Assembly: GCA_003235365.1 (NCBI GenBank)
Contig: QJWJ01000114.1
Location: 1-64,000, forward strand
Reading direction: 5' to 3'
Length of the DNA: 64,000 nucleotides
Source of the DNA: Deltaproteobacteria bacterium
GTDB lineage: Bacteria; Myxococcota_A; Polyangia; Polyangiales; Polyangiaceae
The translations under genes were made by a program, and so were the position numbers. The stretch's first letter is position 1, and each line of letters begins with the position of its first letter. This document shows, in pieces, positions 3,947 to 43,691 of this stretch. Under the pieces are notes generated by a model. That model saw nothing but the letters and a program-made list of their open reading frames with translations. It was not told the DNA's origin and ran no database searches.

Positions 3947-4873
3947 ATGAAAGTCCGACTGATCGTCAACCCCAACGCTGGAGCCGGGCGCGCGCGTGAC
4001 GGGATCCCGAGCGTCGTTGCCGCGTTCGCCCGCGCGGGAGAAAGCTGCGAAGTTGCGGAAACGGCTCGCCCGCGACACGCCGCAGAATTGCTGCGACAAG
4101 CGGCCAGCGACGGTGTGGAGCTCATTGCCGCGATGGGGGGCGACGGCACGCTCAACGAGGTCGCTCAAGCGTACCTGGACGAAGGCGGCAATCCGGTTAT
4201 CGGGCCGCAGCTCGGGGTCGTGCCTTTCGGTACGGGCGGCGATTTCCGCCGTAGCTTTGGCCTCAGCCACGATATCGACGAGGCGGTGAAGCGAATGCTC
4301 ACCTCGGAACCGAGAAGCCTCGATCTGGGCTTCGCCAGGTTGCACGACGATGATGGGCAGGTTTGCAGCCACGCCTTCATCAACGTCGGCAGCTTCGGAA
4401 TATCGGGGGTCGTCAGTCGCCTCGTGAACCGTGGGCCCAAATGGATGGGCGGCAAGACCACGTTCTATCTTGCGAGCGTCCGCGGAACGCTGGGCTACCG
4501 CAACCAACCGGTGCGACTGACGGTCGACGGCAAGGTCGTGTACGAGGGCCCCACGTACTTGGCCGCGTTTGCCAACGCTCGATACTTCGGCGGCGGAATG
4601 CGAATCGCGCCGGATGCCGACCCGGGCGACGGGGTGTTCGAGTGCATCGTGATCGGCGATGTGTCGCTGGCGGGCGCGTTCTCGCTGTCGTCGAAAATCT
4701 ACAAGGGCACTCATTTGCAGATGGACAAGGTTCACACGTTCCGGGGGCGTCACTTCACCGCATCCCCGTTGTACACGAGCGAACGAGTCTCGCTCGAGCT
4801 CGACGGTGAGAACCCGGGTCACCTACCGCTGGACGTCTCGGTGGTTCCAGGCGCTGTGACCTTGCGCGCCTGA
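3947..4873 (+). CDS. Diacylglycerol kinase catalytic-domain lipid kinase (YegS/BmrU type)
   Basis: The 308-residue protein has the DAGK_cat pattern: NPNAGAGRARD at residues 9-18, the nucleotide-binding GGDGTLNE at 64-71 and PFGTGGDFRRSFG at 93-105. Most homologues have GTGNDFAR at the last motif; here Asn is Gly. A C-terminal beta domain carries FANARYFGGGMRIAPDADPGDG, typical of YegS-like lipid kinases. It should phosphorylate a lipid such as diacylglycerol, feeding phosphatidate back into phospholipid synthesis; some relatives act on sphingoid bases, which myxobacteria contain, so substrate is open. The gene is monocistronic and convergent with the ferredoxin gene. Confidence 0.9.
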   Translation: MKVRLIVNPNAGAGRARDGIPSVVAAFARAGESCEVAETARPRHAAELLRQAASDGVELIAAMGGDGTLNEVAQAYLDEGGNPVIGPQLGVVPFGTGGDFRRSFGLSHDIDEAVKRMLTSEPRSLDLGFARLHDDDGQVCSHAFINVGSFGISGVVSRLVNRGPKWMGGKTTFYLASVRGTLGYRNQPVRLTVDGKVVYEGPTYLAAFANARYFGGGMRIAPDADPGDGVFECIVIGDVSLAGAFSLSSKIYKGTHLQMDKVHTFRGRHFTASPLYTSERVSLELDGENPGHLPLDVSVVPGAVTLRA

Positions 4874-4904
4874 CATCCGTACGCGCCCGTGGATCTGCCG
4901 AGAG

Positions 4905-5204
4905 CTACACGGGCCGAACCTTGATCATGCCCGCGCCCGCCTTCAACTTGACCTGGCACGCCAGGCGGCTGTGTGCAGGACCGCCAATCATCTGCAGCAG
5001 GTCGATCTCTTCGTCTTCGGGGGGCTCGAGGTACTCCTGCCCTTCCAAGACCTCGATGTGACAGGTGCCGCACGTGACTGAACGGCAGGAGAACGGTATC
5101 GGCAGCCAATGCTCGTCCGCGAGATCGACGAGCTCTTCGCCTCCCGCGGCCTCGACCTCCTTGCACGGGCCGATGCTGCTTTGCAGAACAATCAGTTTGG
5201 GCAC
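4905..5204 (-). CDS. 2Fe-2S ferredoxin (plant/adrenodoxin-like fold)
   Basis: From a GTG at 5204 the product is 99 residues, a normal ferredoxin length. The [2Fe-2S] ligands are Cys40, Cys45, Cys48 (CRSVTCGTC) and Cys83 (LACQV). The frame stays open upstream, but those codons are Arg/Pro-rich nonsense that would overlap the transporter gene, so the internal GTG is preferred although no strong ribosome-binding site is visible. The linker between the third and fourth Cys holds an acidic insert (LEPPEDEEIDLLQM). It is a soluble electron carrier; the redox partner cannot be told from context. It is divergent from the transporter gene at 5300. Confidence 0.9.
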   Translation of the reverse strand: MPKLIVLQSSIGPCKEVEAAGGEELVDLADEHWLPIPFSCRSVTCGTCHIEVLEGQEYLEPPEDEEIDLLQMIGGPAHSRLACQVKLKAGAGMIKVRPV

Positions 5205-5299
5205 CGGTTGAAGATACGGTAAGAGGGCACGACACCAAGCGCGAAAATGCGCGGCCTGGGTCGGGGTACGAGTTTCGAGAGCTAGGCCGAGTCGCCGCA

Positions 5300-6670
5300 A
5301 TGCAAACCATGCACAGACTGCTGCTCGGCCCCCTGCTGGCGATCGGCGTCGGCATCGCGTGCAGCGCGGCCGACCTGGCGCAACCCGCGGTCCTGACTGC
5401 CGCGCTGACCGCGTGGTGTGCGGCGTGGTGGGTGACCGAAGCCATACCGATCCCAGCCACGTCACTGATCCCCTTCGTCGGCTTTCCCGCTTTCGGTCTG
5501 CTGAGCCCCAAGGACCTGGCGGGCGCCTATGGGCACCCCCTCATCCTCTTGTTACTCGGCGGCTTCCTGCTGTCGTCGGCGATGGAGAGCAGCGGCGCGC
5601 ACCGCGGCGTAGCGCTCAGCTTGCTGCGCGCGATCGGCAACCGCAGCGAGAAGCAGCTCGTCCTGGCGTTCATGATCTGTTCAGCGGCACTCAGCATGTG
5701 GATATCGAACACGGCCACCACGTTGATGCTGCTGCCCGTGGCATTGGCGGTCATCGCCCAGCACGGCGCCCGACCAGAATTGGCCAAGTCACTGCTACTG
5801 GGGATCGCCTACGCCGCCAGCATCGGCGGACTCGGCACCCCCATCGGCACGCCTCCGAACGTGATCTTCATGGGGGTCTACCGCGAGCACTCGGGACAGG
5901 AGCTCAGCTTCCTGCAATGGATGGCCATCGGCATACCGGCCACGGTTACGTTGCTACCCGTGGCGTGGTTGGTCCTCACCAAGCGCTTGCGGGGGGTCGG
6001 TGCCGACATCCCCATTGAGCGGGTGAGATGGACTCGCGGACAGCGGCGAGTGCTGTGGGTGTTCGCTTTGACGGCAGCGTTGTGGATGACCCGCAAGGAG
6101 CCGTTCGGGGGCTGGGCGGCGTGGTTGCCTCAATCCACGGCGGACGACGGCACCGTAGCATTGGGGGCGGCCCTGTTGTTGTTCGTCCTGCCCAACGGCG
6201 AGGGCGGCAGGATGCTGGACTGGGAGCAAACACGGCGGCTGCCGTGGGGTCTGATGCTGCTGTTCGCCGGAGGGATAGCCATCGCGAAGGCGTTCGATGC
6301 CTCGGGGTTGTCCCAGACCATCGGGTACGGATTGGCCGGCTTCGCCAGCCTTCCGAAAGTCGTGATGATCGGTTTGCTCTGCTTGCTGGTGACGTTCCTG
6401 ACCGAAGTGACGAGCAACACGGCAATCACCACCCTGTTGATGCCGATCTTGGCCGCTGCCGCCGCGGCAGCCGGTCAGGATGCCCGCCTGATGATGGTCC
6501 CCGCCGCGCTCAGCGCCAGCTGCGCGTTCATGCTGCCGGTAGCGACGGTTCCGAACGCGATAGTATTTGGGACCGAGCACATCACCATCACCGACATGTC
6601 GCGGGCTGGGCTGAAACTGAACCTGCTAGGCACCTGCGCGCTGACGCTACTGTGTACGGTTCTGCTTTGA
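5300..6670 (+). CDS. DASS (SLC13) family anion transporter
   Basis: The 456-residue polytopic membrane protein has about 11-12 hydrophobic segments. The DASS family Ser-Asn-Thr signatures that bind sodium and carboxylate are both present: WISNTATTLMLLP near residue 135 and TEVTSNTAITTLLMP near 375. WWVTEAIPIPATSLIPF near 43 is also characteristic. Family members import dicarboxylates, citrate or sulfate with sodium; the substrate cannot be assigned from sequence here. There is no operon partner. The SGNH gene follows about 90 bp later on the same strand but functionally belongs to the next locus. Confidence 0.92.
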   Translation: MQTMHRLLLGPLLAIGVGIACSAADLAQPAVLTAALTAWCAAWWVTEAIPIPATSLIPFVGFPAFGLLSPKDLAGAYGHPLILLLLGGFLLSSAMESSGAHRGVALSLLRAIGNRSEKQLVLAFMICSAALSMWISNTATTLMLLPVALAVIAQHGARPELAKSLLLGIAYAASIGGLGTPIGTPPNVIFMGVYREHSGQELSFLQWMAIGIPATVTLLPVAWLVLTKRLRGVGADIPIERVRWTRGQRRVLWVFALTAALWMTRKEPFGGWAAWLPQSTADDGTVALGAALLLFVLPNGEGGRMLDWEQTRRLPWGLMLLFAGGIAIAKAFDASGLSQTIGYGLAGFASLPKVVMIGLLCLLVTFLTEVTSNTAITTLLMPILAAAAAAAGQDARLMMVPAALSASCAFMLPVATVPNAIVFGTEHITITDMSRAGLKLNLLGTCALTLLCTVLL

Positions 6671-35371: not shown

Positions 35372-37111
35372 ATGATACTCGGAGCAAATCGCACATTCCG
35401 TGGACTACCTGCGTCACTCGCCGGTGTACTGCTCTGTTGCTGGACCCAGCTCGGCTGCGAACACGAGAACTCGCCGAGCAGGGAGTCACCGCAAGACGTC
35501 ATCAGCAGCATGGCTGCCGAGCCCGCCGCGACGGCACCGACGCCCAGTGCTGCTGCCACGTCAGTGGCTCCAAGTGCACCGCCCGCGCCGAGCGTGGGAA
35601 CCCGCGACGCGTACCGGAGCGCATCAGCCAAAATCGAAGAAGCGCTTGCACGTCCCGGCATGGCCGGAGCACCGGGCTTCGAAAAAAATCGGACCCAACT
35701 CGTAGCACGAGCGAAATCGGAGCCGGTCTTCTTCGTGAAACGTCCCGAACCCGATCCGACGATGTCCAAAGGCATCGCAGCCCAGAGGCAGTTCTTCGAA
35801 CGAACCGATTTCTCCTGGAGGACTCTGAAGCAGCTGAGGAAGAGGTTCAAAAACGAAAAAGAAACCATGCGTCAGCTGTTCCTCAGTGATGGCTACTTGT
35901 ACAGCGAAGACGCCAATCGCGCGTTCACACTCGTCAGCCTACTCCGACCGTCGATGCTGTTCGACGAACCCGAGCTGTGGATTCAACGCGGACAGAACGT
36001 CTTTCATGCGAACAAGGGGGAAAAGGGTGAGTACTTCTTCTCTGACGGCTCCGAAAGTGGCCAGCGCGTACGCCTGCTGCACTTGGACAGGATTGGCGTC
36101 GGCACCCCACCCGCGCCTCTGCACGTCGACTTTCGCGACCTGAGGTATCGCGCCTACTTCGACCGCGCCAAGGTCCGCCACATCAGTGAGACGCATCTGG
36201 TTGCCGACCTGCGCTACGGGGAACATTGGGTGCGTACCCTGCTCGCGCGCGATGGCGCCCGACTCACCATCGAGGCCGAAGCGCTGGAGCCCGAACGTCT
36301 GGAGAAGGTGACGGCCGCCAAAGAACGCCAGCGTCGACAACTCGTGGCCGTAACCCTGTTGCGCCGTTCGATGCGTGCGGCCATCGACGAGGGGTTGCCC
36401 TTCGACGAACCCAAGGCGGAGTTTGGGCAAGAGGACGGAAAGCTTCGTCGTTTGTGGACGAAGGCCTACTTCGCGGGCGACACCAGCTTCAAGTTCAACG
36501 ATGACCGCTACCACGTGTTCGGCAAAGAGGGGCAGGCGCTCGTCCCCCAGGTGTGCATCGACTTCATGGTCGACACGTTCCAGCGGGCTTCCGGCTCGTG
36601 GTTTCTACCCAAAGACGCCAACAAACGCGAACGACCGCCGGGCAAGTTGAGCTGGGGTGACGTGGAACCCGAGAAGCTGCGGCGCACGAAGTTCTTCGTT
36701 CGCTTTGCGCGGGAGCACCAGGACTGGTTCGAAACTCTGAACTTCCCCGAGTCGAGCCGGGTGGAGCTCGGCTACAAAGATCGCTTCTTCAAGTGGCTCG
36801 AAAAGCGAGTCGACGACTTTGCCGCTGGAGACATCGTACTGATCCGAGGCTACACGCCGTGGGACGAAGAAGACGAACACACGCACTCCTTCTTCGTGTA
36901 CGAGACGGATCCGATGTCGGGAGTGCCGATCGCCATCGCCGGTAACGCCGGACCGGCCAACTTGTGGTCGTGGGAGACGGAAGCCCGTCGCACCCCGCAC
37001 CGCACACTGCGCACACGGGTGCGGCCCAAGCTCGAATGGCTCGAGAGCTTTCTCGATACCGACGGCGCCGCGACACTGGAGCCGCCGGTGTTGATTTCTG
37101 GCAGACGATGA
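35372..37111 (+). CDS. Lipoprotein with possible NlpC/P60-like Cys-His domain
   Basis: The ATG at 35372 gives 579 residues with a signal peptide and lipobox-like WTQLGC (Cys near residue 29). A Pro/Ala/Ser linker follows. The middle region (about 120-350) is charged and unrecognised. The C-terminal 200 residues contain QVCIDFMVDTF, later FAAGDIVLIRGY and DEHTHSFFVYETDP, the spacing of Cys, GDIV and His seen in NlpC/P60 and CHAP-type cysteine peptidases and amidases. That assignment is inference from motif order. The stop overlaps the AlkB start (ATGA), so the two genes are translationally coupled. Confidence 0.7.
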   Translation: MILGANRTFRGLPASLAGVLLCCWTQLGCEHENSPSRESPQDVISSMAAEPAATAPTPSAAATSVAPSAPPAPSVGTRDAYRSASAKIEEALARPGMAGAPGFEKNRTQLVARAKSEPVFFVKRPEPDPTMSKGIAAQRQFFERTDFSWRTLKQLRKRFKNEKETMRQLFLSDGYLYSEDANRAFTLVSLLRPSMLFDEPELWIQRGQNVFHANKGEKGEYFFSDGSESGQRVRLLHLDRIGVGTPPAPLHVDFRDLRYRAYFDRAKVRHISETHLVADLRYGEHWVRTLLARDGARLTIEAEALEPERLEKVTAAKERQRRQLVAVTLLRRSMRAAIDEGLPFDEPKAEFGQEDGKLRRLWTKAYFAGDTSFKFNDDRYHVFGKEGQALVPQVCIDFMVDTFQRASGSWFLPKDANKRERPPGKLSWGDVEPEKLRRTKFFVRFAREHQDWFETLNFPESSRVELGYKDRFFKWLEKRVDDFAAGDIVLIRGYTPWDEEDEHTHSFFVYETDPMSGVPIAIAGNAGPANLWSWETEARRTPHRTLRTRVRPKLEWLESFLDTDGAATLEPPVLISGRR

Positions 37112-37692
37112 CTGTCCGGCACCGAGTGCAGCCGCTGCCCGGCGCGTATCTCGATTTGTTTCCCGGGTGGCTCCCCTCCGCCGAGGCAACTACGTCGTTG
37201 ACAGGCCTGCTCGCGGAGATGGAGTGGGAGCAGCGTTCGGTACGCCTGTTCGGCAAGGACGTGCCCCAGCCACGCCTCATCGCCTGGGCAGCAACGCACA
37301 GCTATCGCTACAGCGGCCTGACTCTGGCGCCGCGCACATACCCACCAACGCTGCAGGTGATCTCCGACGCAGTGCGGGATCATTGCCGGGTCCCGTTCAA
37401 TCACGTGTTGCTCAATCGCTACCGCGACGGCAACGACCACATGGGCTGGCACTCAGACGACGAACCGGAGTTGGGCAACGAGCCCAGCGTGGCGTGTCTC
37501 TCGCTCGGCGCGACGCGAGACCTCTTGTTCAAGCAGCGCCGCCACTCGAAGGAGATCACCACCGTCCCGCTCTCCCACGGCGACCTCCTGCTCATGCATG
37601 GTTCGGTTCAGCACACGCTAGTCCACCGCCTGCCCCCGCGCCGCAAGGTCGAAGGTGAACGTGTGAGCTTGACGTTCCGCTACGTGCGATAG
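37108..37692 (+). CDS. AlkB-like 2-oxoglutarate/Fe(II) dioxygenase
   Basis: The 194-residue protein has the AlkB core: NHVLLNRYRDGNDHMGWHSDDE with iron ligands His115 and Asp117, LSLGATRDLLFKQ, then HGSVQHTLVHRLP with His173 and RVSLTFR with the 2-oxoglutarate/substrate Arg pair near 185-191. This is closest in pattern to the ALKBH2/3-like bacterial group. Such enzymes oxidatively remove N-alkyl lesions from DNA or RNA bases. The ATG overlaps the stop of the preceding lipoprotein, an odd coupling of a cytosolic repair enzyme to an envelope gene. Confidence 0.94.
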   Translation: MTVRHRVQPLPGAYLDLFPGWLPSAEATTSLTGLLAEMEWEQRSVRLFGKDVPQPRLIAWAATHSYRYSGLTLAPRTYPPTLQVISDAVRDHCRVPFNHVLLNRYRDGNDHMGWHSDDEPELGNEPSVACLSLGATRDLLFKQRRHSKEITTVPLSHGDLLLMHGSVQHTLVHRLPPRRKVEGERVSLTFRYVR

Positions 37693-37720: not shown

Positions 37721-38521
37721 TCAGTCCTTCTCGGAAAACGCCGGAGCCCCGTACAACGGCTGGATCTGCGGCGGCTCCGGGTCGATCCCCGCTTGACCGC
37801 CAGTGGTGTCGGTCGCCCCTGCATCCAGGCCATCGTTGCCCATCCCTCCCGCGCCGCCGGCTCCGTCACCTTCGTCGATCGGAGCGATGACGGCACCGTA
37901 CAAGGCCACGGCTGTGGGCACGTCACCTGGCCCCAAGTCGCCGCCTGGATCGGTCGCGTCTGGTCGAGGCTTCGTCGGACGCGCCGACGTCTCCGGCTGC
38001 GTCGGCTCAGCGGAACCGGGTACGGTGCCCTCGGAGGGGCTGACGCTGCTGGGTTCGGGTCGTCCGTCACTGGAAGCAGTGCCGGGCCCGGCGGGCCCCG
38101 GTGTCGTCGGCGATTCACTCCCCGACTGCGGGTTAGACGCCGTCGGTTGAGCTGATTGCTCCCCACCCTGCTTCTGCATCACGTCCGAACTCGAATCATC
38201 ATCGCTGCCGCACGCCGCCGCGGCCAAGGACGCGCCCAGCACGGAACCGAGCAACACCGCCGTGGTGCGACGCCCCGCCCTGGCAATCGCTTCGTTCGCA
38301 GAGGGGACGCCCGCGGAGCCGACGCCCTCACGCTGGGCCGCCTCGCGATTGCTGCGGTCCCCCAGCGCGAACAAACTGGCGCGTTTCAACCCGCTCAACG
38401 TGGGCATCGGCTCCACCGCCTCGCCAAATCCCGAAGGCAACGCTTGCTCGCAAAATGGGCAGACGGTCTCGGCCGCGCGCAAGTGACGTTGGCATTGAGG
38501 ACAAGGCGTGAGGCGGGTCAT
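37721..38521 (-). CDS. Zinc-ribbon/TM protein with two C-terminal LYGA motifs; possible radical SAM substrate
   Basis: The 266-residue protein begins with a zinc ribbon (Cys7, Cys10, Cys21, Cys24). One membrane helix ends in a lipobox-like AAAACG near residue 104. A long Pro/Ser/Thr/Gly-rich tail follows, with two similar short motifs: VALYGAVIAP at 205-214 and QPLYGAPAF at 254-262, the second close to the C-terminus. Its ATG overlaps the stop of the radical SAM/SPASM gene by 4 bp, so the two are translated together. Enzymes of that class usually modify a neighbouring small peptide, and the repeated aromatic LYGA motifs would be natural target sites. This is inference; it could also be an unrelated sensor-like membrane protein. 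Confidence 0.75.
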   Translation of the reverse strand: MTRLTPCPQCQRHLRAAETVCPFCEQALPSGFGEAVEPMPTLSGLKRASLFALGDRSNREAAQREGVGSAGVPSANEAIARAGRRTTAVLLGSVLGASLAAAACGSDDDSSSDVMQKQGGEQSAQPTASNPQSGSESPTTPGPAGPGTASSDGRPEPSSVSPSEGTVPGSAEPTQPETSARPTKPRPDATDPGGDLGPGDVPTAVALYGAVIAPIDEGDGAGGAGGMGNDGLDAGATDTTGGQAGIDPEPPQIQPLYGAPAFSEKD

Positions 38522-39843
38522 GGCGATGCAGGCTCCTGAGCGTTTGGAGGTATGGGCTCTTCGATCAAGTCGAACCTACCGCGGTCGAAAGGCAACCCGG
38601 GGGCAGTTTCACTGAGAACGACACGTTCTCGTTTACCAGCTCGCTGCATTTCCAGGGCCCGATGATGACAGTAGGGGTTATTTCCCGGCCTGCCGAAAAG
38701 GCTGTGCCCCATCCACGTGCACCCGGCTCGACACTCGTTGGCGTAATAGCAGGTACGACAATACCCCCAAAGATCCTCCACGGTTCTGTCGCGGGTGTAG
38801 CGCAGCCGCGCCGAGCGCTCCCAAACGTCGCGCAGCGAGGAATCGAGAATGTTTCCCCCTGCCCAATCTTCGGTTTGCAGGGACGGGCATCCTTTCAACG
38901 TTCCATCGGCCTCGATGCCCAACGTGGCCCGCCCAGCCCCGCACGACCCGGAGTGCCCGCCGGGGACGTGCTGGCGCAGCAGCCGTTCGTGGGGTCCGAA
39001 GTAGCCCACGTTGTTTCCCGGGTAGATCCTGACCTTGCCGGCGCGGGCTCGCGGCACGAGGTCGGCGAGCAGGGGGAACACCGTGAGCAACTCGTAGGGC
39101 TGCAACATCACGTCTGGTTGGTCCGCGGCGCGGCCCATCGGCACCGTCAATTGCAATTGCCAGCCGTGGGCCCCGTGGGCGACCAGCACGTCGAGCAACG
39201 GCGGAAGGGCGGTGTACGTCCAACGGTTGATCTGGGTATTGACCGAAACGGGAATGCCCGAGGTGCGCAGGTTCTTCAGCGCAGCCAGTGCAGCGTCGTA
39301 GGACCCTTCGACGCCGCGCAGCCGGTCGTGTGCCTCCCGCAAGCCATCGATCGACACGCTGACGCTCATGAGGCCGGCCGCTTTCGCCTGCCGTGCGCGT
39401 TCTGGAGTAACTCCGCGCCCGCCCGTGGTCATCGTACAGTCCATGCCCAACCGGCGCACTTCCCCGACAATCTGCGTCCAATCCTCACGGAGGTAGGCTT
39501 CGCCTCCGATGAGCGTCACTTCCTTGATCCCCAGCTCGGCCATTTGTCGGGCAAGATCGAAGCATTGTTCCGTGCTCAATTCGCTGGGTCTCGAGCGCCC
39601 CGCACGCGATCCACAGTGGCGACAAGCCAAATCACACGCAAGCGTGATCTCCCACACGGCGTAGATCGGGCGCGTCCGCTGATCCTTGACACGCGCCGTC
39701 GCTTCGAGCGGTAAGTCGCGACGCGCCGCTGGAGCTAGAGGTGCCAACGGCAGAGACCGTTTCGGGGGGCGACGCAACAGCCGCGGATCGATGGTTTCGT
39801 TCGTGACGTCGGCGCGATCGGGAGTCTTCCTCCCGTCAGTCAC
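38518..39843 (-). CDS. Radical SAM/SPASM-domain enzyme
   Basis: A GTG at 39843, overlapping the upstream stop (GTGA), gives 441 residues; longer readings enter the upstream gene. The radical SAM cluster is C-x3-C-x2-C (Cys70, Cys74, Cys77 in ITLACDLACRHCGSR). VTLIGGEAYLREDW is the GGE motif and SVSIDGLREAHDRLRG the beta-5 segment. The C-terminal SPASM region is complete: CGAGRATLGIEADGTLKGCP, GNILDSSLRDVWERS, then CRTCYYANECRAGCTW. SPASM enzymes bind extra 4Fe-4S clusters and typically modify peptides (anaerobic sulfatase maturases, sactipeptide and cyclophane synthases). The two neighbours are coupled by 4-bp overlaps. Confidence 0.93.
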   Translation of the reverse strand: MTDGRKTPDRADVTNETIDPRLLRRPPKRSLPLAPLAPAARRDLPLEATARVKDQRTRPIYAVWEITLACDLACRHCGSRAGRSRPSELSTEQCFDLARQMAELGIKEVTLIGGEAYLREDWTQIVGEVRRLGMDCTMTTGGRGVTPERARQAKAAGLMSVSVSIDGLREAHDRLRGVEGSYDAALAALKNLRTSGIPVSVNTQINRWTYTALPPLLDVLVAHGAHGWQLQLTVPMGRAADQPDVMLQPYELLTVFPLLADLVPRARAGKVRIYPGNNVGYFGPHERLLRQHVPGGHSGSCGAGRATLGIEADGTLKGCPSLQTEDWAGGNILDSSLRDVWERSARLRYTRDRTVEDLWGYCRTCYYANECRAGCTWMGHSLFGRPGNNPYCHHRALEMQRAGKRERVVLSETAPGLPFDRGRFDLIEEPIPPNAQEPASP

Positions 39844-40499
39844 GTCTCGAACCCCTCGGGGTCCACCGTTGGGTGGTGGGTCAGCACCGGGTACAGGGAC
39901 TCGATCAGCAAGGGATCGACGCGGCACAACTGCAGGCGCGCGTGACAACGATTGTAACCGCGACACGCTGCCTCGATGGCCTCGTTGCGCCGCGCAACGG
40001 CACGCGACTCCGGCTCGAAGCACGCCTCACGGCGCGCGAGAGCCCCCTCCAGTTCCGTTTGTCTCGCTTTGACCTCCGCGGTCAACTCCACCAGTGGTTG
40101 GCAGCGCGGGTCCTCCTCCAGGCGTCCGATCAGCCCGCGCACGAACTCATTCTGTCGATGACCCGCAGTCGAAGCGATCGCCACGTTGAGATCGATTGGA
40201 AACAAGAACTTGAACAGGGGCGCGTCGCGGCGACCGTCACACGCCTGCAGCGCAGCATCGGCGAGGTGGGTGACGGCTCGATCGACGAGTTCGTCGCGAT
40301 AGGCGATCTCCGCCGTCGCCGCCAAGCGCTGGGTGCGCGTCGCTTCGTAGTTTTGCTGGGCGGCCACCAATTCGTCACGGACGTACAACAGCTCGTCGAC
40401 GATCGGCGGTGCCAGCTCGTGCGCCTGCATACGCGCGACCAGAAACGACACAGCTCGCAGGATGGTCGGCACGCCATGGTCTTCGCTCAAACGGTGCAC
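39840..40499 (-). CDS. Coiled-coil protein of unknown function, first gene of the radical SAM operon
   Basis: A GTG at 40499 starts 219 residues. The sequence is mainly helical, with heptad-like stretches around residues 35-75 (LYVRDELVAAQQNYEATRTQR) and 135-175 (ELTAEVKARQTELEGALARR). Three Cys lie near the C-terminus (EAACRGYNRCHARLQLCRVD). I do not recognise a family. Its TGA overlaps the radical SAM GTG, so it is co-translated with the enzyme and may be an accessory or partner protein. Confidence 0.7.
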   Translation of the reverse strand: MHRLSEDHGVPTILRAVSFLVARMQAHELAPPIVDELLYVRDELVAAQQNYEATRTQRLAATAEIAYRDELVDRAVTHLADAALQACDGRRDAPLFKFLFPIDLNVAIASTAGHRQNEFVRGLIGRLEEDPRCQPLVELTAEVKARQTELEGALARREACFEPESRAVARRNEAIEAACRGYNRCHARLQLCRVDPLLIESLYPVLTHHPTVDPEGFET

Positions 40500-40804
40500 T
40501 CGTGCGTCTTATCACTCCTCGGGGCAGAGCACCAATGGCCCCGAGCGGGGCGATTGGCGGGATACGATGTAAGACATCGACCAACGCTGGACTCGCGCCC
40601 CGGGCCAGGTTGATGGTAGTAACCGATCCCCAGACGCCACCACGTCGGTCGTTCGAGGTCCGCACGCGGTCGGACTTCTCGGTGTTGGTTGGTGTGGGCG
40701 CGAAACGATGAATTTGTGTAGGTGGAGTCGAAACAGGCAAGCTGCAACGGCCCCCCCGCGCTACTCGATGGCCGCCACGGCAACGGATTGTACGCCCGAG
40801 GCCG
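40500..40804. other. Divergent upstream region of the radical SAM operon
   Basis: These 305 bp hold no convincing gene. The region must contain the promoter of the minus-strand radical SAM operon. On its right it abuts copy B of the structured repeat. Confidence 0.5.
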
Positions 40805-40962
40805 CTAGAGCGGCAATCAGGTTGATTGCTGCGACGAATCAAACCTCTGGCGCACCGAGCAGCGCGCAACGGGAGCCGACGGTGGCCCCGAAGAGCGCGA
40901 TCGCCGATCTCAGGGCGACTTTTCGGGGCGATTCCGTGTCGTGGCAAGCTGATCGGTGCTCC
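40805..40962 (+). repeat. Structured 158-bp interspersed repeat, copy B
   Basis: Same length as copy A (30468-30625), aligned without gaps. The hairpin at 40810-40832 has a G-T in place of an A-T pair (40812/40830), which is a G-U wobble only if the + strand is transcribed. Outer stem 40849-40863 with 40948-40962 shows A-T to G-C change at 40849/40962 and G-C to A-T change at 40861/40950, each compensated, plus two mismatches. The inner stem has A-T changed to G-C at 40903/40916. Copy B begins with the same CTAG that copy A offered to the insertion sequence. Confidence 0.8.
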
Positions 40963-41052
40963 AAATGGGCGAGCACGATTGTCGGGCAACCTGGAACGCG
41001 ACCCCGACGTCGTTGCATTTCGGCGTGGTCCGCCGCCTGGTGCGGCTGCTTT

Positions 41053-42285
41053 GTGGCGCTCACCACGGCCTGGACGGCGGAGGCCTCCCCTTCGGACCTT
41101 TTCGGCCTGGGTTCACGCAGCCAAGGCATGGCCGCAACCGGGGCAAGTCACGAAACCGGGTTTGCCGCCACCTACCTCAACCCGGCAATGTTGTCCCGGA
41201 CGCCGCAGCGACGGCTCGCCCTCGGCGCTGCATCGACGCTAATGTCGTTGGACGCGACCTGGGCGACACCTGACCAAGCCCCCTTCCAGTCGCTCGACGA
41301 TGACACCGAGGCACTGGTATTCGGCGTGACCGCGCCGCTGCCGCTCCCCGCTCCCGTGGAAGATCGCCTGGTGCTCGGCCTGGGCGTATCGACGCCGGGC
41401 TCGACGATCGCGCGCGTCGACATCGCCGCGCCGACCCAGCCGCGCTTCCCCCTGGTGAGCAGCCGGGCCGAGTCCCTTTCGTTCAATTTGGGCGTAGGAG
41501 CCCGGCTCAGTTCGGAGTTGACGGTGGGAGTTGGCACCATGCTGCTGGCCAGTCTCGAAGGGAGCGTGGCACTGGACGCCGGCGGGGACGGCACGGCGCG
41601 CAGCCTGACCGACGACCAGTTGGTCTTGACACAGGCGCCGTTGGTTGGCGTCGCCTATTCGCCCACCGACGAGCTGAGCGCCGCGCTCGTTTGGCATTCG
41701 GAATTGCGGTCGGACTTCGACATGGTCGTCACCGTCAACGACCTGGGCTCGCTCGTCATCCCGGACCTGAACGTGGTCGGTCTCGCCCAGGTCGATCCGG
41801 CACAACTGGTTGCGGAGGCAAGCTACCGCACCGAATCGTGGACGGCGGCCTTCGGTCTCGCCTACAAGCGCTGGTCGAACATCGATGGCTTCGCCGGCGC
41901 AACGGTACGCTGTCCGGCACAACGCCCGGACTGCGACGCGCCATCATCGAGAAGCCTCGGTCTACGCGATATCTGGGTTCCGCGAGTCGCCCTGGAACGA
42001 GCGGTGAAACTTCCGGGCGCGACAGCGTTGATCCGCGCCGGATACTTCTACGAACCCAGCCCGCTACCGGCGGCGTCGAGCGACCTGCGCGTGTTCGACA
42101 ACCCGAGGCATGCGCTGACTGCCGGCTACGGACTGGACCTGGGCAATGCACCAGCGAGCGTGGCGTTGGGGATCGCCGCCCAATACCACGTGCTGGTCGA
42201 ACGCGAACACCCAACGACCCCCACCACGGTACGCACGAGCGGCAACGTCTGGTCCATCGCTTTCGACGCGGAGGTGACGTTCTGA
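41053..42285 (+). CDS. FadL/OmpP1-like outer membrane protein 1 (start uncertain)
   Basis: The GTG at 41053 gives 410 residues of outer-membrane beta-barrel with the FadL-type beginning SPSDLFGLGSRSQGMAATGASHE and LNPAMLSR. The residues just upstream in frame (RPRRRCISAWSAAWCGCF) complete a convincing signal peptide, so the true start is probably further 5', yet there is no ATG/GTG/TTG in frame there until the region before the structured repeat (ATG 40768). A frameshift from ATG 40964 is possible. FadL-type porins move hydrophobic molecules across the outer membrane. The stop overlaps the next FadL-like gene's start (TGATG). Confidence 0.8.
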   Translation: MALTTAWTAEASPSDLFGLGSRSQGMAATGASHETGFAATYLNPAMLSRTPQRRLALGAASTLMSLDATWATPDQAPFQSLDDDTEALVFGVTAPLPLPAPVEDRLVLGLGVSTPGSTIARVDIAAPTQPRFPLVSSRAESLSFNLGVGARLSSELTVGVGTMLLASLEGSVALDAGGDGTARSLTDDQLVLTQAPLVGVAYSPTDELSAALVWHSELRSDFDMVVTVNDLGSLVIPDLNVVGLAQVDPAQLVAEASYRTESWTAAFGLAYKRWSNIDGFAGATVRCPAQRPDCDAPSSRSLGLRDIWVPRVALERAVKLPGATALIRAGYFYEPSPLPAASSDLRVFDNPRHALTAGYGLDLGNAPASVALGIAAQYHVLVEREHPTTPTTVRTSGNVWSIAFDAEVTF

Positions 42286-43691
42286 TGTTGCCCGACGACA
42301 GAAGGTTCGTGAAGGGTCTGCCCCATATCGCTACCGTCGTCGCACTGTTGCTCGGCGAGCGCTCTGCGATGGCCAACCCGGTCGACAGCTTCGGCCTCGG
42401 CAGTCGCTCTACGGCGATGGGCGGAGCTGTCACTGCTCGCGTCACAGACCCGAGTGCAACCTACTACAACGTCTCGGGGTTGGCGTTGGCGAAGCACACG
42501 TCGGTCAGCGGCGGCTACGTGCACCTAGCGCCCAACCTGTCACTCTCGGACGAGCCAGCACGGCTGCCGAGCATCGATGCGTGGCAAGTCGGGCTGCTCG
42601 TGCCCGGCACCCTGTTCGACCTCCCGCTGGCCTTTGGGTTGTCCGGCCAGATCGCAGGCGACACGCTCTCACGCGTCGTCACGTTCGCCGAGGAAGACCA
42701 ACGCTGGTTTCTCTACGACACGCGCCCGGAGCAGATCTACCTCAGCGCGGCTCTCGCGGTTCGGCCTTTGCCCTGGTTGGCCATCGGCGGCGGGTTCACG
42801 TTCCTGGCCTCCACTCGCGGGCAGCTCCAAATCACCGGCACCGCGGTGCAGCCGTTTGGAGACACTGACGAGTACGATTCGCAGCTGAACCACGGCGTCG
42901 AAGCCCGCCTGACGAGCGTGCGCTACCCGTGTTTCGGGGCGACGTTTTCCCCGTCGCCCCGAGTAGACCTCGGTGTGTCGTACCGTGGCGAAGGCAGCGT
43001 GGTGTTGGACGTCGACTCGAACATCGAGGGCGACGTCCAACTCGCACCCGCCCTGCGTATCCCGATAGCCTACGCGCTGACATCGGAGACGGTTCAGTCC
43101 TTCGTTCCACGCCAGTTGACGGTAGGCGGTCGGGTCGGGGTCGACGCCGATGTCGACGTGCATCTCGATCTGTCGTGGGTCGACTGGTCCGAGTATCCCA
43201 GCCCACTGAGCGCCACCAGCAGTGAACTCACCGCACGACTTCCGCCAGGGCTGACGTACACCTTGCCCGAGCTGCCGCCGCCGACTCGGTTGACCTCCGC
43301 GCGGTTGAGCGATCGGTTCGTTCCGCGAGTCGGTGCCGAGTGGCGCCCGGCAGAACGGCGATTCGGCGCCTGGGCCATTCGGGCGGGCTACGTATTCGAG
43401 CGCAGTCCCGTCGTTCGATCGAGTGCACCCCAACTGGTCGACGCCGATCGCCACACCGTCTCGCTAGGCGTCGGCGTGAGCCTGCTACCCGTCGATTACC
43501 CCGCCACGGATCCGCCCTCCGGTGCATCCGACGGTCGCTCCCAGTGGCGAGGGCACCACCTGATGTCCATCGACGCTCACGCTCAGTTGGGCATCTTGCC
43601 CACGCGCCGCCTGCCCAACACACCGGACCCTGACGACACCGCGGGAGGCAACACCGTCTCGGCGGGCTTGTCGTTGTCCTTGCGCCTCTGA
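42285..43691 (+). CDS. FadL/OmpP1-like outer membrane protein 2
   Basis: The 468-residue protein starts with a signal peptide (HIATVVALLLGERSAMA) followed by NPVDSFGLGSRSTAMGGAVTA and ATYYNVSGLALAK, the N-terminal hatch pattern of FadL/TodX channels. Alternating beta segments and the terminal LSLSLRL fit a barrel. It is a paralogue of the preceding gene and is coupled to it by a one-base TGATG overlap, so the two channels are made together. Substrate is unknown; hydrophobic compounds are usual. Confidence 0.88.
   Translation: MLPDDRRFVKGLPHIATVVALLLGERSAMANPVDSFGLGSRSTAMGGAVTARVTDPSATYYNVSGLALAKHTSVSGGYVHLAPNLSLSDEPARLPSIDAWQVGLLVPGTLFDLPLAFGLSGQIAGDTLSRVVTFAEEDQRWFLYDTRPEQIYLSAALAVRPLPWLAIGGGFTFLASTRGQLQITGTAVQPFGDTDEYDSQLNHGVEARLTSVRYPCFGATFSPSPRVDLGVSYRGEGSVVLDVDSNIEGDVQLAPALRIPIAYALTSETVQSFVPRQLTVGGRVGVDADVDVHLDLSWVDWSEYPSPLSATSSELTARLPPGLTYTLPELPPPTRLTSARLSDRFVPRVGAEWRPAERRFGAWAIRAGYVFERSPVVRSSAPQLVDADRHTVSLGVGVSLLPVDYPATDPPSGASDGRSQWRGHHLMSIDAHAQLGILPTRRLPNTPDPDDTAGGNTVSAGLSLSLRL

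Follow-up and report, generated by a model that had tools for sequence, protein, structure and literature searches.

A predicted radical SAM splicease and its candidate zinc-ribbon lipoprotein substrate in a member of the Polyangiaceae

We analysed a stretch of 64,000 nucleotides (positions 1 to 64,000 of contig QJWJ01000114.1, assembly GCA_003235365.1; hereafter the window) from a bacterium of the family Polyangiaceae. On its minus strand a gene for a radical SAM/SPASM enzyme of 441 amino acids, with a GTG start (38518..39843), overlaps a gene for a protein of 266 amino acids (37721..38521). Comparison with homologous loci indicates that the two products are a real enzyme-substrate pair. The enzyme is probably a splicease, of a kind related to PlpXY yet distinct from it, with lipoprotein-tail substrates in cis and in trans. 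Both genes belong to a trio on the minus strand coding for 219, 441 and 266 amino acids, which is linked by overlaps of 4 bp: GTGA at 39843-39840 between the first two genes and ATGA at 38521-38518 between the last two. This layout had been claimed in a preliminary description of the same DNA, and its coordinates, lengths and overlaps proved exact on recheck. The evidence used throughout is computational. Genes of the window were taken from a list of open reading frames (ORFs), as a codon-based gene caller shortened some of them. Homologues came mostly from metagenome-assembled genomes (MAGs), with genes called by a home-made caller.

Across the order of the host, the enzyme has homologues of the 266-aa protein beside it. 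We considered 65 loci with enzymes at least 45% identical to that of the window; a pattern search found zinc-ribbon neighbours in 46 of them, and a profile search added at least three. In the first kb downstream of enzymes that share at least 53% identity with that of the window, the YGxP motif had a density of 1.32 per kb; at a distance of 2-6 kb the density was 0-0.04 per kb. As a control we took 20 further radical SAM genes from related genomes, around which YGxP occurred at 0.04 per kb and no zinc ribbons were detected nearby. The preliminary description had proposed that the enzyme belongs together with a membrane protein ending in a LYGA tail, and had suggested that homologues of the enzyme be examined for tailed neighbours. 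We observed such neighbours, with X-Y-G tails, beside the enzyme homologues, and the concentration of YGxP in the first kb downstream agrees with the proposal.

The association was also visible at the level of whole genomes. The zinc-ribbon profile (match threshold E ≤ 1e-8) was found in 34 of the 39 related genomes with the enzyme and in none of the 20 without it (Fisher p = 1.9e-11), and in a phylum-wide draw the counts were 19/39 and 0/76 (p = 2.8e-11; both p-values overstate independence, because the two samples share genomes and the genomes are kin). Tailed zinc-ribbon proteins in genomes devoid of the enzyme, which would have spoken against the pairing, were therefore seen in neither sample. 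Many zinc-ribbon proteins are encoded at a great distance from enzyme genes. Across 40 regions that were sampled, nearly all such proteins again had XYG close to the C-terminus: YG was present in 50 of the 52 profile rows, in 46 within 60 residues of the end. The source genome (10.4 Mb) itself encodes two further zinc-ribbon proteins, at C530 and C477, each ending ATPYGCVWPDDEFV. It also has a second predicted splicease, at C530, which is 58% identical to the enzyme of the window.

The enzyme had been described as a radical SAM protein with a complete CxxxCxxC motif and SPASM region, and we could confirm both. The radical SAM [4Fe-4S] motif is CDLACRHC (39613..39636, minus strand, as are all features of the two proteins given below). 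The core of the SPASM domain is CRTCYYANECRAGC (38719..38760; C362, C365, C371, C375), and all seven SPASM cysteines are present (C301, C319, C362, C365, C371, C375, C392). Pfam gave matches to Radical_SAM (3.8e-24) and SPASM (2.7e-07). The cluster cysteines were invariant across 36 aligned relatives, an alignment that leaves out one row with a stop codon and a few others, and they were nearly so in a more divergent set. The top NCBIfam matches were TIGR04103 (493 bits) and TIGR03913 (469 bits), far above any other family. The closest named relatives are in MAGs labelled Myxococcales, Polyangiaceae, Labilithrix and Polyangia, which makes the host a myxobacterium, probably one of the Polyangiales. 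The identity to cyanobacterial spliceases (PlpX-type, TIGR04103) is 50-55%. The enzyme is kin to a characterised class of maturases, the PlpX spliceases, which the preliminary description had missed.

In a tree of 133 relatives, midpoint-rooted and with deep forks partly unresolved, the enzyme of the window fell within a myxobacterial group. Cyanobacterial TIGR04103 enzymes and GDL-type enzymes each formed a group of their own with support (SH-aLRT ≥95). Outside all of these branched a further, divergent group of myxobacterial enzymes. The AlphaFold model of the enzyme had a mean pLDDT of 84.8 and a pTM of 0.85. Its nearest solved folds were the peptide maturases SkfB, PqqE and SuiB and the sulfatase maturase anSME (TM normalised to query approximately 0.54-0.61); these proteins differ from the window enzyme in chemistry and substrates and share 14-26% identity with it in structural alignment.

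The 266-aa protein consists of an N-terminal zinc ribbon with CPQC..CPFC (CPQCQRHLRAAETVCPFC, 38450..38503), a hydrophobic helix and a disordered tail. The helix with its lipobox is AVLLGSVLGASLAAAAC (38210..38260); it ends in a lipobox-like LAAAAC, the cysteine of which is Cys104. This cysteine is the only one behind the ribbon. The tail has two LYG sites (AVALYGAV and IQPLYGAP) with no cysteines around them, and beyond the ribbon the protein has no tyrosines other than those of these two sites. The LYG of predicted splice site 1 (37895..37903) lies within TAVALYGAVIAP, and that of predicted splice site 2 (37748..37756) within QIQPLYGAPAF. NCBIfam gave no match for this protein, neither to a Nif11 nor to an NHLP leader. 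The reading as a zinc-ribbon/transmembrane protein with a LYGA tail was thus right as to the ribbon, the presence of a hydrophobic helix and the pair of LYG sites, and probably wrong as to the supposed transmembrane segment, which looks like a lipoprotein signal rather than a permanent anchor.

We compiled 67 such substrates, including that of the window, after a handful of clearly other matches had been removed by eye. YG followed the ribbon in all 67. A cysteine followed the hydrophobic helix in 66, and the residue preceding it was Ala (32), Gly (32) or Ser (2). The lipobox call rests on pattern and hydropathy; the pattern was passed by 60 of the 67 proteins, and a few homologues fit poorly before the cysteine. 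Glycine directly followed 134 of the 162 tail tyrosines, where shuffling led us to expect 26 (at most 43 in 1000 shuffles). YGxP occurred 94 times, compared with 2.7 expected. The tails often carry several sites. The residue before X was Pro or Ala at 103 of the 134 sites, while X itself was most commonly Ala (50) or Leu (23). The homologues therefore share X-Y-G-[small]-P, and not LYGA as first supposed. The tyrosine of LYG had been named as the target, and LYG is indeed the likely site of modification.

Some substrates depart from this pattern. In one subclade (L082, L083, L085, L087, L088, L090, L091 and L093) the lipobox cysteine stands directly before Tyr-Gly (TLMACYGAP, TLSACYGG), therefore splicing would alter the lipidated cysteine. 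In the neighbours of the enzymes at L106 (3280-5946, oriented) and L105, YMAP, YNAP and YYAP repeats take the place of some LYGAP sites; the site preference may here be relaxed or different. At L096 and L097 the enzymes are approximately 41% identical to that of the window, and divergently transcribed proteins beside them (4498-5643 and 4612-5433, oriented) carry four YGIP repeats, mostly with a cysteine four residues ahead of the tyrosine.

A profile of the substrate ribbon was run over 19,699 ORFs and matched almost only XYG proteins and ribbons on related enzymes. The latter matches were at the C-termini of GDL-type enzymes of Burkholderiaceae, Pseudomonas, Chromobacterium, Azospirillum and others (E 3e-7 to 3e-3), more weakly on a GDL-type enzyme of Aureibacter (E 0.04), and at the N-terminus of an enzyme of Tropicibacter (9e-8). 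Because one lineage has this domain in its substrates and another has it in the enzyme itself, these matches suggest a physical link between the ribbon and the enzyme. The ribbon may then be a docking leader for the splicease. Two further observations point the same way: a PlpY-like gene was not found in the myxobacterial loci searched, and some divergent enzymes that have substrate tails of their own are without a zinc-ribbon neighbour. Placed on the substrate, such a leader was not found beside known enzymes and would set this family apart.

These divergent enzymes, at L100-L104 and L109, end in a C-terminal part of their own that combines a hydrophobic stretch with a cysteine and one or more XYG sites, and no zinc-ribbon neighbour accompanies them. 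The fused repeats include DAYGIP five times in L101 and DYGV seven times in L109, and these enzymes apparently carry their substrate in cis. On a plasmid of Tropicibacter oceani (L136, 3695-6503) a relative of the spliceases bears its zinc ribbon at the N-terminus, and its gene overlaps one for a trypsin-like protease. Upstream of these lies another radical SAM gene, and downstream a gene for an M23 peptidase.

PlpXY acts on XYG, naturally on MYG and LYG, with a mass change of -135.0757 Da (PMC10533398, PMC11002830), and its splice tags include PIRPLYGLPI and AVAAGYGVVFP (PMC10533398). The two sites of the window are of the same make as these tags, the second being comparable with PIRPLYGLPI, and as the ends of cyanobacterial precursors. 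Members from Nostoc C057, Nostoc carneum and Xenococcaceae pass TIGR04103 with 752-853 bits, and they adjoin small proteins ending SIALYGLPPELF, QPQPLYGIVIDPP and PVPLYGLPPSPV. The precursor of Nostoc C057 is of Nif11 type (TIGR03798, 4.8e-19). The InterPro entry of PlpX, IPR026482, presumably corresponds to TIGR04103. The PlpXY system of the Pleurocapsa plp cluster (TIGR04103, nif11-class peptide radical SAM maturase 3) and that of the window are alike in the radical SAM/SPASM enzyme, in X-Tyr-Gly sites with similar flanks and, often, in several sites per substrate. They differ in that the window enzyme belongs to a separate clade, under the family cutoff and with no PlpY-like partner found, and in that its predicted substrates are zinc-ribbon lipoproteins, many of them in trans, whereas those of PlpXY are Nif11/NHLP precursors. 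Since the enzyme is kin to PlpX spliceases, we would expect excision of tyramine at each X-Tyr-Gly, that is -135.0757 Da per site, rather than the -2 Da per motif expected previously.

Several observations weigh against the splicease reading and its lipoprotein substrate. The enzyme scores under the curated cutoffs of both families (493 vs 725 bits for TIGR04103, 469 vs 591.75 bits for TIGR03913). We rejected its assignment to either, because of these scores and because several other features tested for membership were not found. PlpX works with PlpY, and a PlpY-like partner gene was present in 17 of 18 cyanobacterial loci, while the window and the searched myxobacterial loci gave a single match, at E = 0.024, too poor to be meaningful. 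The comparison with the PlpX class was made through cyanobacterial relatives, not with PlpX itself. All but approximately 49 of the 65 loci of close homologues are without a recognised adjacent substrate, several of these being at contig ends. The first site of the window has no Pro at +3. Ahead of the helix stand 87 amino acids, which is long for a lipoprotein signal and is the weak point of the export step.

Other known systems resemble the pair in part. The TIGR03913 GDL-motif maturases with their DUF1843 peptides belong to the same enzyme superfamily, have a related zinc ribbon and show YG in many peptides. There the ribbon is fused to the C-terminus of the enzyme, which acts on short DUF1843 peptides, whereas here the ribbon is on the substrate; no DUF1843 match was obtained among the neighbours. 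The DUF1843 ('GDL motif') peptides beside TIGR03913 enzymes have YG where the domain begins or close to it (MLYGGA, PLYGVGLQQA; L134 3037-3752, L135 3171-3884, L195, L205, L211, L215), and for this reason they look like splicease substrates. The structure of a DUF1842-DUF1843 protein has been solved, with no known function (PMC10994174).

In DAG-RiPPs (RiPPs being ribosomally synthesised and post-translationally modified peptides), MNIO enzymes have been shown to modify the precursor in the cytoplasm before it takes the lipoprotein pathway, and further RiPP-lipoproteins beyond MNIOs were expected by the authors (PMC12636315). By pattern and hydropathy, the 266-aa protein has an architecture of this type, with a lipobox cysteine after the helix and upstream of the predicted sites. 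The likeness would consist in a modified tail behind a lipobox and, as proposed here, in cytoplasmic modification before lipoprotein export. The DAG-RiPPs differ in the MNIO class of enzyme, in their chemistry and in having no zinc-ribbon leader. We also considered sactipeptide/ranthipeptide or cyclophane maturation and rejected it, as the surroundings of the sites are free of cysteines and conservation falls on the Tyr-Gly pair.

We favour the following course of events. The zinc ribbon would dock the substrate onto the splicease, and part of the tyrosine would be excised from the backbone at the two LYG sites, in the cytoplasm, leaving ketoamides. The spliced protein would be exported by the lipoprotein route, with Cys104 of the lipobox lipidated, and lipoprotein signal peptidase would remove the ribbon together with the helix. 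We infer docking, lipidation and cleavage from the domain arrangement. The disordered tail with its two ketoamides would then be displayed on the membrane, where it could be a tethered inhibitor of serine proteases with a preference for Ala/Pro-Ala/Leu. Elastase- and subtilisin-type proteases favour Ala or Pro followed by Ala, Leu or Val. Spliceotides have been reported as protease inhibitors (PMC10373908, PMC11117315). A surface-tethered protease inhibitor is the leading idea because the site residues match this preference and spliceotides are reported to inhibit proteases; nevertheless, it is the weakest step and we regard it as possible rather than probable.

Splicing could also proceed as proposed with the ketoamide serving as an electrophilic anchor, through which the lipoprotein would become covalently bound to amines at the surface or to other partners. 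In cells, external reagents readily attack the ketoamides that PlpXY makes (PMC10533398), and the presence of several sites per tail would suit such a role. However, known spliceotides are reported as protease inhibitors, and the residues before the tyrosine resemble recognition sequences of serine proteases, so that we think anchoring somewhat unlikely. The zinc-ribbon protein might, on the other hand, be a permanent membrane protein, with its N-terminus in and its tail out, neither lipidated nor cleaved, and with the tail spliced before insertion. This would suit an n-region much longer than in a usual lipoprotein signal and the poor fit of a few homologues to the lipobox. Yet the cysteine behind the helix, with only Ala, Gly or Ser before it, is a requirement of a lipobox and not of an anchor, and the fused enzyme-substrate proteins keep the helix-cysteine unit; we consider a permanent anchor unlikely.

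A different chemistry at the same X-Y-G sites, such as cross-linking of the tyrosine, epimerisation or dehydrogenation (-2 Da), would leave the pairing intact. Divergence of this kind is conceivable in an enzyme outside both family cutoffs for which a PlpY-like partner was not found. However, the Y-G pair is as in characterised spliceases and is kept across the cyanobacterial, GDL-type and myxobacterial clades, and a cross-link would need a conserved second partner residue, none of which was seen around the sites. We judge other chemistry improbable. Even less credit, and in our opinion very little, is due to mere hitch-hiking in an operon, with the lipoprotein having a function of its own and the enzyme acting on another substrate. 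The many zinc-ribbon proteins distant from enzyme genes could be taken in its favour, but the distant copies keep their XYG sites, the family is absent from the sampled genomes without the enzyme, and the control radical SAM loci had neither a zinc ribbon nor an enrichment of YGxP.

The upstream gene of the trio (39840..40499, minus strand) encodes the 219-aa protein and, judged by position, is probably co-transcribed with the genes of the enzyme and the substrate. NCBIfam and Pfam gave no family match for this protein. Its homologues were found in 7 of 59 genomes at approximately 30% identity, and the two clear ones (29-31%) are not beside a splicease. A genome of the same genus (G001) keeps the 4-bp overlap of the enzyme and substrate genes without the 219-aa gene. 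We therefore place this gene outside the conserved system and have dropped the three-gene system, including a 'coiled-coil' protein, of the preliminary description. Judged by eye, a convergent plus-strand gene resembling AlkB-type oxygenases (window 36964-37692) ends approximately 30 bases from where the substrate gene ends, and two neighbouring plus-strand ORFs resembling FadL-type outer membrane proteins (window 40708-43691) are divergent from the operon. A plasmid search with the substrate of the window gave no match.

In a wider reading, myxobacteria might have an organism-wide system of protein splicing, in which one to a few spliceases edit up to approximately 20 lipoproteins by means of a detachable zinc-ribbon leader. 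The leader would be removed by lipoprotein signal peptidase, and the cell surface would display arrays of alpha-ketoamides. The RiPP-lipoproteins would thereby gain a radical SAM class, with a new type of leader and no PlpY, in which the ACYG subclade splices the lipobox cysteine and another fuses the substrate to the enzyme. We hold this picture tentatively, as something a little short of an even expectation. Parts of the zinc-ribbon splicease family may already have been described, in a survey of spliceases across bacteria that was reportedly made by Scott et al. 2022 (Chem, doi 10.1016/j.chempr.2022.09.017). The reading would extend the idea of RiPP-lipoproteins from MNIOs to radical SAM enzymes, and it suggests how DUF1843 proteins, hitherto of unknown function, may be modified. 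Spliceases produce backbone beta-amino acids in ribosomal proteins, which are otherwise beyond translation, and they are already used as tools for protein labelling. If the reading is true, a large family with zinc-ribbon leaders, trans substrates and no PlpY would add enzymes that may be simpler to use, and a reactive backbone group would be tied to the cell surface of predatory bacteria.

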